Source: Planctomycetota bacterium | GTDB lineage: Bacteria; Planctomycetota; Planctomycetia; Gemmatales; Gemmataceae | Direction of reading: 5' to 3' | Assembly: GCA_016873095.1 (NCBI GenBank) | Contig: VGYC01000017.1 | Location: 1 to 61,246 of the forward strand | DNA length: 61,246 nt | Part shown: positions 5,603 through 32,948 of the stretch, in pieces | Position numbering within the stretch: position 1 is the stretch's first letter | How the letters are laid out: each line of letters begins with the position of its first letter | Notes under the pieces: model-generated | What the model saw: only the letters and a program-made list of their open reading frames with translations | Database searches by the model: none | Told to the model about the DNA's origin: nothing | Position numbers and translations under genes: made by a program

Positions 5603-5737
5603 CGGCCCGCCCCGCGGTGACTGGGAGAGGCTGATCCACTGCACAAGAGTCCGTTGCTTATGGCTGCACCTTCCGGCCTGACCAGGTTCACAACTTCCCT
5701 TTGCGTGGGTCCCCTCCCAGCCCCGTGAGGCGGGCCG
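5603..5737 (-). ncRNA. ffs: Signal recognition particle RNA (bacterial small type)
   Basis: On the minus strand the conserved domain IV core reads CCTGGTCAGGCCGGAAGG followed by TGCAGCC (about 5660-5686), with the GGAA tetraloop and the flanking asymmetric loop that binds Ffh M domain. The ends pair: CGGCCCGCC at the 5' end with GGCGGGCCG at the 3' end, then CTGGGAG with CTCCCAG, closing a long rod of about 135 nt. It starts 3 bases after a cyclophilin stop and lies upstream of dnaX, the ffs-dnaX-ybaB order known in other bacteria. It is somewhat longer than the E. coli 4.5S RNA. The terminal pairing sets the limits; processing could trim a few bases. Confidence 0.93.
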
Positions 5738-23125: not shown

Positions 23126-23499
23126 TTCGCTACAATTACAACGCACAGATCAATCCACCTGCTCCATTTGTGCTTGTTACGCTCAAGAACGTCCTCACGG
23201 GCGCCGAAGCTGCGAATCTCCCCGCACAACTCGATTGTGCCGCGGACCGAACTCTTCTGTCGCGTGTTGTCGAAGCGCTTGGGTTGCCGACCATCGGCAG
23301 CATTCAGATCGGCGGCGTCGGTGGGACCATTGCCGAGATGCTGGTCTACGCGGTTCGCCTGAGCTTGCATGACCTGCCGGAGCGCGATGTGGAGGTGGTG
23401 GCTCATCTTGATGAGTCGTGGATCCTGCTCGGCCGCGACGTGCTCAATTTCCACCGCATCGTTCTCGATGGTCCGCGACTTGCACTGGAATTGCAATAG
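23107..23499 (+). CDS. Retropepsin-like aspartyl protease fold protein
   Basis: A 130-residue protein with the single-lobe layout of retroviral-type aspartic proteases. PAQLDCAADRTLL (residues 39-51) stands where DTGA(S/D) is expected, so D43 is the candidate catalytic residue but Thr-Gly is replaced by Cys-Ala. The closing element SWILLGRDVLNFHRIVLDG matches the usual LLGRDxLN motif. As a dimer it could be a small intracellular protease, or it could have lost activity. It overlaps the DUF5678 gene by 19 bases. Confidence 0.75.
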   Translation: MESNPVIRYNYNAQINPPAPFVLVTLKNVLTGAEAANLPAQLDCAADRTLLSRVVEALGLPTIGSIQIGGVGGTIAEMLVYAVRLSLHDLPERDVEVVAHLDESWILLGRDVLNFHRIVLDGPRLALELQ

Positions 23500-23593: not shown

Positions 23594-24664
23594 TCATTTC
23601 TTGACTTGCAAGGCAACACTGCCCAGCATCTCGTCGCCCGCATCTGACTGGATCAGGCAGCTCCCCAGGTGAAAACCGGGGGCAACGCTCTTGCCACACG
23701 ATATGTTGATCGTCGCCTTACCATCTGGGTGATTGACAAGATCGACCGTCAGCCCCGGCGTCTCGGACCAGACCTTGGTCAAGCGCACGAATTTCGCTCG
23801 CCCTTCGAGCGGCACGAGGGAGATCTCGCCCCGGCCACCCGGGCGCAAGACAGCCAGGGGCGGGCTGAAGCGGAAAAACGGCTCGCGAAAGACCGTTACG
23901 CGCACGGGAATCGCCGGGCCGTTCGCACGGCTGGCAAAGATCACCGTCCCTTCAATCTCGGACTGGCTCTGCAACTCTTTGCGGTCGGGCGTGATGCGCA
24001 AGCGGACCAGGGCCGATGTCCTGTCGTGCTCCTTGATCTCGGCGGTAATCCAGGGCACCTTGCTTGTGATGTGGAGCTTCGGCACCTGTCCTTCGTCAAA
24101 GCTGATGGCCACGTCACGCTCGCTTGCCATCTTCTGCTTGCCGGCGCTGCTCTTGACGCGGATTGTCGTCGGGCTGATGGTCAGCTTGTCGGTTGGCCTG
24201 GGGCGCTGGCAGATGCCGACGATCTCGAAGACTGGCTGGCTGCCATCGGCGCACTGGAAGACGATTTGCTGGGCCACGCGTCCGGAAATTCCCCAGGAGG
24301 CACGCAGGATCGAGAAGTCGATCTTCTGCGCGCCGCCCGGCGCCAGCAAGCCCCCCGTCCACGAAAGGGAGTTGACGCACGGACAGGAGGTAAAGACGCG
24401 CTCGATAACGACGGGCCTTTTCCCCGTATTCCGGACGGTGCAGGACTTCTTTTCGGGAACGCTGGCGTCGGCAGCGCCTATGTTGAATGTTCCCAGGTCC
24501 ATGCCCGCCGGCTCGAATGCGATCGCGGCCGCGCTCTTCTCGTTTTCCTCATTTCCCTGGCATACGAACAGCACCATCCCGCCGGCAACGAGAAGCAGCG
24601 ACGTGCCGACGATGGTCCACAATCGATTGCCTTGCGTGCCCTTCGCGTTCAACCTGCTTGCCAT
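23594..24664 (-). CDS. DUF1573 protein, membrane-anchored
   Basis: A 356-residue protein with an N-terminal membrane helix (RLWTIVGTSLLLVAGGMVLFV) and a DUF1573 immunoglobulin-like domain: MDLGTFNIGAADASVPEKKSCTVRNTGKRPVVIERVFTSCPC (in parts), then LLAPGGAQKIDFSI. A second beta domain follows (VPWITAEIKEHDR, VRLRITPDRKELQSQSEIEG). The TSCPC motif is the usual Cys pair of the family. The open frame continues 48 codons upstream into palindrome B2, so the ATG of MASRLNAKG is the correct start. The gene upstream is a LolA-like protein, and the same pairing recurs at 31268-32948. Confidence 0.85.
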   Translation of the reverse strand: MASRLNAKGTQGNRLWTIVGTSLLLVAGGMVLFVCQGNEENEKSAAAIAFEPAGMDLGTFNIGAADASVPEKKSCTVRNTGKRPVVIERVFTSCPCVNSLSWTGGLLAPGGAQKIDFSILRASWGISGRVAQQIVFQCADGSQPVFEIVGICQRPRPTDKLTISPTTIRVKSSAGKQKMASERDVAISFDEGQVPKLHITSKVPWITAEIKEHDRTSALVRLRITPDRKELQSQSEIEGTVIFASRANGPAIPVRVTVFREPFFRFSPPLAVLRPGGRGEISLVPLEGRAKFVRLTKVWSETPGLTVDLVNHPDGKATINISCGKSVAPGFHLGSCLIQSDAGDEMLGSVALQVKK

Positions 24665-24715
24665 GATGTACTCGCGAATCGCGACCTGCTCGTGCTCTGA
24701 GCAGCGGTCGGCGTT

Positions 24716-24794
24716 GGGAGGGCGAGGCTCCTGCCGAGCCGTGGAGCGACAATAAGCAAGCGGGTTCACGGCTCGGCGGGAGCCTCGCCCTCCC
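24716..24794. repeat. Palindromic repeat family B, copy 2
   Basis: Left arm 24716-24743 (GGGAGGGCGAGGCTCCTGCC then GAGCCGTG), right arm 24767-24794, near-perfect over about 27 bp with a 23-base loop. It lies between two co-oriented genes. Read through as protein it gives an Arg/Gly/Ser-rich stretch, which is how over-long starts for the neighbouring DUF1573 gene arise. Confidence 0.88.
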
Positions 24795-24876
24795 GAAATA
24801 CGGTTCATCTACAGGTTCCTTGCGACGTTGCTTGCGACAAGACCTCCTGCAAGACGATGAGGAACCACCGCGGGCA

Positions 24877-31037: not shown

Positions 31038-31244
31038 TTGGACTGCAAATCGGACTGCGCAGACACACAGCTGGCATCATCTCGGAAGGGTTGCCAGTTT
31101 TGCAGCAACTGCGTCCTCAACTTCAAGACGGCCACCTGCGAGGGGCTTTGCGATAACACAACAGCATGTGCCATGCACTGCAAATGCGCTGACCTTACGC
31201 CCAAGCAACTCTTGCCGACGTGCGGATGCATCCCCAACTTTTGA
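31038..31244 (+). pseudogene. In-frame continuation of the Cys-rich protein after the UGA
   Basis: 68 codons, same frame as 30780-31037, with twelve cysteines in CxxC and CxC spacing. It could be translated only by readthrough or from the TTG directly after the TGA. No ribosome site of its own is visible. The matching Cys-rich character on both sides of the stop argues that the ancestor was one protein of about 153 codons. Confidence 0.5.
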
Positions 31245-31267
31245 GCCCACACGGCAGGGAGTACTCC

Positions 31268-32293
31268 GTGAAGTCGAAGACCAACATGTGGCTCACACCG
31301 TTCGCGCTTTCGCTTAGCGCGCTGTTAGTACGCGCGCAATCACCAGTGGACTGGAAGGCGGAACTCGTGCGCCAAATCCCTGAGAAATGGGACGCCTTCA
31401 AGAAGTTTGCCAGGAGCCTGCAAGGCACCATAACGGCACGCAACCATTCGAACCTCGGCGGAAGCCATCTGGACACAACGATCTTCGATGACATCAAGCA
31501 GAGCCAAGCATGTAGCTTGATCAAAACGAGGTCCGTCAGGAAACGGCTTGGTGATGTCCGCAAGAAGGAAGTAGCCGAGAACGAGATGGTATTTGCCGCC
31601 AACTCGAAGTACGCCTTTTCGCTCGCAAAGCGGAAAGCGGGCTGGGTGCTCGAAGACTTGTTCATGGACCCAGAGGCCAGGGTCACTCCCACCAAGCAGT
31701 CTGTCGCCGAGTACGTGCTGACTGCCATTTCGGGACATTTCAGTGTGCTGGACCAGAACCTTGCCGGCCTCATTGAAGGCGGCAAGCTGAAGGTAACCAG
31801 GGTCGTTGCTGAAAACGCGAGCAAGTCTGGCGAGGTGGCTGCCGACTTTCAATACGCAGGCGGTCCACGCAATTTGCCGCAAGTGTCGGGCCGGATGCTT
31901 CTCAGCCCTGAAAACCTGTGGTGTGTCCTGGGGTTTGATTCGTTCTTCGAGACGGACGGAACCAAGACCATTCTCCGCGCAACAAACGAGTTCAAGACCT
32001 ACCATGACGTTTACCACGTTCCTGTGCGCACGTCGTTTGCATGGATCAAGCAAACGCGAGAAGGGGAGACGCCCGTCCGAAAAGTCACGGTCGAACTCGA
32101 TCTTCGGGAGGATGCCAGCGCTCCCGAATCTGACTTCACGCTTTCGGCCTTTGGCTTGCCCGAGCCACAGGGTTTTACGTGGCCGACGCCCACTCGCTGG
32201 TACCTCTGGTTTATCGTGGCTGCAATGATTGCCGCCGGTATCGGACTGGCATTGCGCCGGGCTCGAAGGTTCCAGAACCACGGATCACACTGA
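31268..32293 (+). CDS. Exported protein with C-terminal membrane helix, partner of DUF1573-like protein
   Basis: A 341-residue protein. The signal peptide is MWLTPFALSLSALLVRAQ after a short N-terminus. A large extracytoplasmic domain (FARSLQGTITARNHSN, AANSKYAFSLAKRKAGWVLEDLF) follows, then a C-terminal helix (YLWFIVAAMIAAGIGLAL) and a basic tail. The layout resembles 24877-26001. The GTG start has GGGAG 6 bases upstream; the frame runs 16 codons further without support. The last codons (QNHGSH and stop) are the left end of repeat F, so the natural C-terminus was probably altered by that element. Confidence 0.65.
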   Translation: MKSKTNMWLTPFALSLSALLVRAQSPVDWKAELVRQIPEKWDAFKKFARSLQGTITARNHSNLGGSHLDTTIFDDIKQSQACSLIKTRSVRKRLGDVRKKEVAENEMVFAANSKYAFSLAKRKAGWVLEDLFMDPEARVTPTKQSVAEYVLTAISGHFSVLDQNLAGLIEGGKLKVTRVVAENASKSGEVAADFQYAGGPRNLPQVSGRMLLSPENLWCVLGFDSFFETDGTKTILRATNEFKTYHDVYHVPVRTSFAWIKQTREGETPVRKVTVELDLREDASAPESDFTLSAFGLPEPQGFTWPTPTRWYLWFIVAAMIAAGIGLALRRARRFQNHGSH

Positions 32294-32400: not shown

Positions 32401-32522
32401 TGTTCTTGATCCTTTTAGGCGCCTCGCCGCCCGGAGAATTCTGAGATTTCCGTTGTCAGCCAGGCTGGAAGCGCGGATAATCAACACGTGATTCCCAGCG
32501 GTGATTGCCAGAGGTGATTGCC

Positions 32523-32948
32523 ATGCCCTATCGATTGCTGTCCAACCTGTTCCTGCTTGGCGGCATCGCGTTCCTTGGACTGGCGGCGTATGATTATTTC
32601 GCGCCGCCGCCCGAATCGCAGCTACACGTCGAGCAAGCCGACCTGGAGTTCCCCGACCTGCCCGCCGGGTGCGACAACACGGTCGTGTTTCACCTGGACA
32701 ATCGGTCGGGCCGGCCGATGCGCGTGCTGGGCCTGACAGGCTGCTGAAGCCAGAATTGCCGCTTCGGTCTGAAGCGACCCGAAAACTTGACCAGCCTGCC
32801 GCCCGGTCCAGTGGAGTTGCCGTTCAGCCTGGTCACCGGCAGCGCGGGACCGTTCAGTTCGCAATTCCATGTCTTCGTTGACGACGGTGGCACGCGCGAG
32901 ATCGTCCTATCGGTGAGCGGCACCGTGGCGGGGATTGCGAAACGCTGA
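32523..32948 (+). CDS. Candidate selenoprotein, small membrane-anchored DUF1573-like protein with Sec at UGA codon 75
   Basis: The frame from ATG 32523 to TGA 32946-32948 is 141 codons, with an internal TGA at 32745-32747 as codon 75. N-terminal membrane helix (NLFLLGGIAFLGLAAYDYF). DUF1573-like core: ADLEFPDLPAG, VVFHLDNRSGRPMRVLGLTGC, then codon 75, SQNC, and after it LTSLPPGPVELPFSLV and REIVLSVSGTV. Protein character continues across the UGA to the family's natural end. Cys74 precedes the UGA and Cys79 follows. Twelve bases later CGCTTC-GGTCT-GAAGCG is a perfect SECIS-like hairpin. Homologous layout at 23594-24664 has two Cys here (SCPC). GAGG lies 8 bases before the ATG. If the UGA is a stop, the product is a truncated 74-residue protein; a nonsense mutation remains the alternative. 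Confidence 0.7.
32760..32776 (+). promoter_or_regulatory. SECIS-like hairpin downstream of the in-frame UGA
   Basis: CGCTTC (32760-32765) pairs perfectly with GAAGCG (32771-32776), closing a GGTCT loop (32766-32770). Eighteen bases lie between the UGA and the loop. From memory, E. coli fdhF has a loop containing GGUCU with the same 18-base spacing, and its SelB-binding upper stem is of this size. The bases also encode the protein. Sequence and pairing are seen; function is inferred. Confidence 0.65.

Follow-up and report, generated by a model that had tools for sequence, protein, structure and literature searches.

The window, a 61,246-nt stretch of contig VGYC01000017.1 from a Planctomycetota bacterium (Gemmataceae), belongs to a draft genome (G000) of 8.36 Mb in 548 contigs that is 95.5% complete. 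Its forward strand carries a short open frame with a single internal UGA, a hairpin immediately beyond that codon, and an upstream gene ending 229 bases 5′ of the frame. These features and two related copies located elsewhere in the same genome are as follows.

31220..32293 (+), neighbour gene whose product has a hint of LolA/LprG likeness; probable start ATG at 31286 (by eye)
32511..32516 (+), Shine-Dalgarno-like GAGGTG, assigned by eye, 6 bases 5′ of the ATG
32523..32948 (+), putative selenocysteine (Sec)-containing gene; 141 residues with U75, a predicted membrane helix (residues 2-26, model) and a predicted Ig-like domain
32745..32747 (+), in-frame UGA at codon 75, very probably read as Sec; UGA or Cys in 34 of 34 aligned rows
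32760..32776 (+), SECIS-like hairpin CGCUUC-GGUCU-GAAGCG, with its conserved 5-bp core at 32761-32775
C353:1649-2047, paralogue; a UGA copy that keeps frame, hairpin and conserved residues
C57:23153-23479 (L026) (-), third copy, with its match at 23162-23476; UGA and hairpin kept

As a separate observation, the window also encodes a bacterial small SRP RNA at 5621-5717 (-) (RF00169, 46.7 bits).

An earlier note on this DNA had described the 141-codon frame with TGA at codon 75, and the perfect 6-bp stem with a GGUCU loop that lies 12 bases further on; both descriptions were accurate. Codon 75 is the sole internal TGA of the frame. The gene itself terminates in TGA (32946-32948), so that UGA 75 and the stop UGA must be distinguished by context. 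Twelve bases (32748-32759) separate the former from CGCTTC-GGTCT-GAAGCG, a 6-bp stem closing a 5-base loop, and the distance from UGA to loop is 18 bases. The SECIS element of Escherichia coli fdhF has a GGUCU loop at the same 18-base distance from its UGA; the hairpin described here differs from it in having a shorter conserved stem (5 bp), no bulged U, and a loop that reads xGUxx among relatives. The 25-nt segment containing the hairpin, when folded alone, reached -8.5 kcal/mol (z -2.45; 5 of 200 shuffles as good), and the minimum for the 46-nt stretch starting at the UGA was a different fold (z -1.21; 21 of 200 shuffles as good). The folding energy of the single window sequence is thus weak evidence.

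The two paralogues carry UGA at the same codon, show 45% and 40% identity with the window protein, and share the motif C-UGA-xxNCRF; the copy on C57 has an additional TAG and no evident membrane-anchor start in its N-terminal part. Of 102 genomes from the order searched with a profile built from these three proteins, 30 gave matches, 49 in all, which fall at 48 places after merging of two pieces. Homologues had been proposed in the earlier note as the place to look for Cys or UGA at the aligned position, and both were found: column 75 held UGA at 23 places (the three seed genes included) and Cys at 18, with one place having neither, one interrupted copy, and five classical DUF1573-like or unclear cases. 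Neither UAA nor UAG occurred in this column at any of the 48 places. The UGA forms were distributed over 17 genomes, with a maximum of four in a single one (G064).

For alignment A2 we selected 34 rows (22 UGA and 12 Cys). The remaining 14 places were left out, namely a UGA form with a further TAA (G067), the form with neither Cys nor Sec (G029:C160), the interrupted copy (G064:C26), six Cys forms (G092, G089:C337, three of G075, and a fragment from G100), and the five classical or unclear DUF1573-like places (G064:C46, G073:C8, G101:C56, G009, and G011). Column 75 was the sole invariant column of this alignment, all 12 rows devoid of UGA carrying Cys, not Trp, and the family sequence downstream of the UGA was conserved as protein. 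Of the 22 UGA rows, 15 had Cys immediately before Sec and seven had Gly, Ser, Ala or Val there; 21 possessed Cys at U+4 or U+5, and L093 alone had it at neither position. The Cys-Sec motif noted earlier does exist in the window gene, but its Cys74 is too variable to be the conserved partner of Sec in the family; as read from the alignment, that role falls to the Cys at four or five positions after Sec.

The hairpin was compared in the 23 UGA genes, all found by the protein profile, and in the 18 Cys genes, with G067 and the six Cys forms left out of A2 counted here. A perfect 5-bp stem, GCUUC/GAAGC, occupied bases 14-18/24-28 after the UGA in 22 of the 23 UGA genes, and four of the five pairs formed in the remaining one (G041). 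This recurrence at the exact place indicates that the window hairpin is more than a chance structure. In 21 of the 22 stem-bearing UGA genes the loop followed xGUxx, its second and third bases being G and U. The outer sixth pair was not conserved (formed in 12 of 23 genes, switching between C-G and U-A, and in 8 of the 16 rows of a pattern-selected alignment), and the 5-bp stem itself is invariant and showed no covariation. Rows of alignments A5 and A8 were picked by a pattern requiring the hairpin, so their stem conservation is not evidence. Only one Cys gene (G034) had the 5-bp stem. This gene, at L073:1501-1884 (-) (G034:C264), retains a perfect GCTTC/GAAGC hairpin in which the loop is changed, and is likely a relic of a Sec gene.

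Codon choice within the stem bears on whether the protein alone would dictate the hairpin. The codon before the stem Lys specified Leu, Pro, Ser, Ala or Val, yet its third base was G in 22 of 23 genes (443 of 1105 third bases elsewhere in these genes). The stem Phe was encoded by TTC in 22 of 22 cases versus 94 of 141 elsewhere, and the stem Lys by AAG in 22 of 22 versus 48 of 93, while the codon after Lys, which specified Arg, His, Gln, Pro or Leu, began with C in all 23. The rows are related, and binomial figures on these codons therefore overstate significance. Resampling of synonymous codons with the amino acids fixed (2000 runs), a procedure that preserves the amino acids and not the relatedness of rows, produced a mean of 2.3 and a maximum of 8 stems in 23 genes, as compared with the 22 observed. 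Judged from these comparisons, protein constraint alone does not account for the conservation of the hairpin.

These data bear directly on two readings of the UGA that do not involve Sec. The earlier note regarded a nonsense mutation in a decaying gene as the main alternative, and some copies do look decayed, i.e., the C57 copy with its extra TAG and missing N-terminal part, and the relative G067 with its extra TAA. Decay, however, does not fit a single column that holds UGA at 23 of 48 places (in 17 genomes), Cys at 18 and UAA or UAG at none, nor a protein conserved downstream of the codon and a hairpin conserved beyond what that protein demands; we rejected this reading as very improbable. 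Slightly less probable still, and likewise rejected, is that UGA is reassigned or generally read through in the lineage, e.g., as Trp or Cys. We found no support for reassignment: the gene itself ends in TGA, the 12 aligned rows without UGA carry Cys and not Trp, selA and selB are present (see below), and reassignment needs no hairpin maintained against synonymous drift.

The genome encodes most of the machinery for Sec insertion that the earlier note had suggested looking for. Genes selB and selA are adjacent on C81 (L024 7236-9230 and 9240-10637), selA scoring 571.8 bits (cut-off 267.9) and selB 383.4 bits (cut-off 242.25), and selD lies on C117 (283.5 bits; cut-off 125). This selD is C-terminal to a pyridine nucleotide-disulfide oxidoreductase domain in a fused frame (L028:76-2529, +), with TIGR03169 and TIGR00476 both over cut-off; its best-scoring model, TIGR04369, which is named for an oxidoreductase/SelD-related fusion and not for SelD, gave 398.4 bits, below the cut-off of 700. 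According to passages in PMC4807772, Gemmata obscuriglobus and Isosphaera pallida each have a complete set of genes for Sec insertion. In the order as a whole, selB was detected in 86 of 102 genomes, so its co-occurrence with UGA forms (13 of 17 genomes) is uninformative. The other four UGA genomes (G002, G051, G055, and G096) gave no selB match at E ≤ 1e-60. An intact tRNA-Sec gene (selC; ARAGORN SeC, anticodon TCA) was present in 9 of the 10 relatives examined (G088, G064, G010, G011, G072, G012, G051, G055, and G096), hence in three of those four; G002 had neither, selC not being found there.

In the window genome, selC was recovered only in pieces. No intact gene emerged from its contigs, whether they were searched with the tRNA-Sec family, with either of two patterns, by BLAST using the selC of a relative, or with a model derived from nine relatives; the two covariance searches scored 150 of 1102 and 150 of 853 candidates. 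Matches to the tRNA-Sec family were tRNA-Ser or tRNA-Leu wherever ARAGORN made a call (one of six loci had none), and a pattern match at C52:39573 was supported as selC by neither ARAGORN nor Rfam. A 40-nt selC 5′ half reaching up to the anticodon loop is found at G000:C6:70507-70546 (+) (L190:10507-10546), 39 of its 40 bases being as in the G096 gene (by eye), and a 17-nt selC 3′ end lies on a separate contig (G000:C242:9229-9245, -). The patterns tried revealed no 3′ half near either piece. Flanks (1.5 kb) of the relatives' selC genes gave one protein match to C242 (G010, 40% over 366 residues), and other flank matches fell only inside the tRNA piece, with no clear synteny.

Fragmentary selC raises the question of whether the family uses Sec but the window organism has lost selC, its three genes then being relics that end at codon 74. 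The pieces themselves and the degenerate copy would fit such a loss. Against it, selA and selB are intact, and frame, hairpin and conserved residues are all preserved in the window gene and its C353 paralogue; moreover, a draft of 548 contigs at 95.5% completeness makes an assembly gap over selC likely, and repeated attachment sites, which interrupt assemblies, would be consistent with tRNA pieces lying on two contigs. We read the pieces as attachment-site remnants combined with such a gap, and they may also stem from a disrupted selC; loss is possible, with a low probability that nonetheless exceeds those of the two readings rejected above. Overall, the UGA/Cys homologues, the hairpin kept against synonymous drift, and selA, selB and selD in the genome strongly support the proposal of the earlier note that the UGA encodes Sec. 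For the family, Sec at position 75 is highly probable; for the window organism it is very probable, at a slightly lower confidence because selC was found only in pieces.

The predicted structure of the window protein (pLDDT 91.4; 15 sequences, U written as C) consists of a helix at residues 2-26 and an Ig-like sandwich. In this model, strand 66-77 contains Sec75 close to its end and strand 79-83 opens with Cys79, the two lying three residues apart across a tight turn. Residues 31-140 of the model adopt an ASH/HYDIN Ig-like fold (Foldseek E 1.8e-6, Z up to 11.9), with CEP192 (7ptb, Z 11.6), VesB (4lk4, Z 11.0) and HYDIN (2e6j, Z 10.5) among the proteins predicted to be alike. This shared ASH/PapD-like fold says nothing about function, and we know of no Sec centre in the corresponding domains of HYDIN, CEP192 or VesB. 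As to the DUF1573-like character ascribed to the protein earlier, Pfam gave no match to the window protein at E ≤ 10, DUF1573 (PF07610) included, whereas among 34 family members at E ≤ 1 DUF1573 was matched weakly in 18 (best E 4.6e-5) and HYDIN/VesB Ig in 10. Other weak matches were to FixG_C (1 of 34) and Monooxygenase_B (2 of 34).

A classical DUF1573 protein with an SCPC motif is encoded in the window itself; the earlier note had placed it at 23594-24664, and its frame is 23597-24808 (-) (Pfam 31.3 bits; cut-off 26.1). The same protein scored 21 bits against the OS_HP2 model (cut-off 100). Classical planctomycete DUF1573 proteins are of a related domain type, as far as shared weak Pfam matches tell, but have a CxC motif and no UGA. 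The earlier note knew of no Sec-containing DUF1573 protein. One such protein, OS_HP2 (UxC/UGC), is in fact described in passages of PMC2398784, PMC9312934 and PMC13188914, where it is listed from the Olavius algarvensis symbiont metagenome (NCBIfam NF041425, PF07610). OS_HP2 resembles the family reported here in having a DUF1573-type domain in which Sec replaces a motif Cys, the first one as read from the UGC/UxC motif. Our family departs from it in several respects. Its motif is UxxxC or UxxxxC, not UxC/UGC; NF041425 (cut-off 100 bits) did not match the window protein and gave five weak matches among the 34 members, E being no better than 0.0021 and two of them scoring 15.0 and 13.5 bits; and it was found in a single planctomycete order, with a gene neighbourhood of its own. 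Searches of the literature on selenoproteins, DUF1573 and planctomycetes turned up no prior description of this Sec subfamily. We regard the protein as a new subfamily within an already described type of selenoprotein.

The UGA form is known here from one planctomycete order only, most likely Gemmatales, sampling elsewhere being weak. Apart from the genome that holds the window, no genome matched in a phylum-wide search (392 genomes, 43 matched, 10 candidates scored per genome) had a listed match with an internal stop. As a check on specificity, 84,980 species genomes were scanned with a pattern that joins UGA, NC codons and hairpin. It retrieved 13 stretches with 14 sites, each of which reads as a full member of the Sec family; 12 of these stretches are contigs already matched by the order-wide profile, so the scan is not independent evidence. 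The stretches were titled Gemmataceae (2), Fimbriiglobus (2), Gemmatales (2), Planctomycetota (4), Planctomycetia (1), uncultured bacterium (1), and Methylococcaceae (1). The Methylococcaceae-labelled contig (CADDZF010000218.1, 3.35 kb) carries a planctomycete-type Sec gene (L195:2735-3178, +) with a DUF1559-type frame (by motif) immediately 5′ of it, and is probably misbinned. In viral contigs, neither a search for related loci nor the UGA/hairpin pattern found anything; the related-locus search in genome contigs, run with back-translated patterns that had Cys and would miss UGA codons, was also negative. With the motif columns removed, a tree built from the 34 rows required seven UGA/Cys label changes (bootstrap 5-7; shuffled mean 10.1). 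With few supported branches, it is compatible with one origin, and we claim no count of independent Sec-Cys exchanges.

The gene upstream of the window frame encodes a product with a probable signal peptide (by eye), an FxLxAFGLPEP motif, and a C-terminal membrane helix (model). It belongs to a planctomycete membrane protein family in which the PEP motif precedes the C-terminal membrane helix. Pfam assigned it no family at E ≤ 0.01. Its low-confidence model (pLDDT 71.8) contains an LprG/LolA-like half barrel (best E 2.4e-4, TM 0.26-0.45), only a hint of such likeness. Upstream frames of at least 150 residues ending within 330 bases were present at 35 of the 48 places. With phmmer, homologues of the window neighbour (E 0.0012 or better) were detected upstream at 8 of 16 UGA places, itself included, and at 16 of 19 other places; these LolA-like frames mostly lie 13-35 bases from the match, and on one contig overlap the start codon. 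Among the 16 upstream proteins of UGA genes, Pfam recognized DUF1559 in three, an AAA ATPase in one and a cellulase in one, and among 18 proteins at other places (L099 left out) it gave one weak match and no DUF1559. Loose motif patterns, applied to both strands of short flanks, placed DUF1559/N-methylation pseudopilin signatures near 10 of 23 UGA and 15 of 25 other places. Planctomycetes carry many DUF1559 genes, and the adjacency of these to Sec genes therefore needs a background comparison. A LolA-like membrane protein gene is a frequent neighbour, and a DUF1559 pseudopilin gene often is too.

Taken as a whole, the locus is best explained as a selenoprotein gene, a reading to which we assign a probability of roughly 0.88. 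SelB carrying Sec-tRNA would bind the GCUUC-GGUCU-GAAGC hairpin, which starts 13 bases after the UGA, such that UGA 75 would be decoded as Sec and the UGA at codon 142 would terminate translation. The product would be a membrane-anchored protein whose Ig-like (ASH/HYDIN/DUF1573-type) domain is expected outside the cytoplasmic membrane, where Sec75 and Cys79 would most likely form a reversible selenenylsulfide. Such a protein may serve as a surface thiol/disulfide redox module, perhaps acting on the LolA-like membrane protein and the DUF1559 pseudopilin. A surface selenenylsulfide module is plausible, at about even odds, and a functional link to the two neighbours falls somewhat short of that, both estimates being matters of judgement. 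It is less likely that the role of Sec75 is instead to bind a metal or metalloid or to reduce peroxide. Passages in PMC13188914 include the MerB-like lyase SaoL and the metal-binding MbdU among Sec families with a CU motif, and the weak FixG_C and Monooxygenase_B matches point the same way; CU, however, is not conserved in this family, and no metal-handling family appeared among the upstream neighbours scanned (16 + 18 proteins).

Gene finders that read UGA as a stop would split these genes, so annotations probably lack the family or contain it in truncated form. It offers a case of Sec and Cys forms coexisting within one order, with one Cys gene retaining the hairpin, and a short, very uniform SECIS-like element suitable for trials with a planctomycete SelB. 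Its neighbourhood would tie Sec chemistry to planctomycete envelope proteins. Tentatively, the UxxxC subfamily on its membrane-anchored Ig/ASH domain may be the redox part of a conserved planctomycete envelope cassette (LolA-like protein plus DUF1559), with up to four Sec paralogues per genome and repeated Sec-Cys exchange. If so, selenium chemistry at the cell surface would act on a pseudopilus- or lipid/envelope-handling system.
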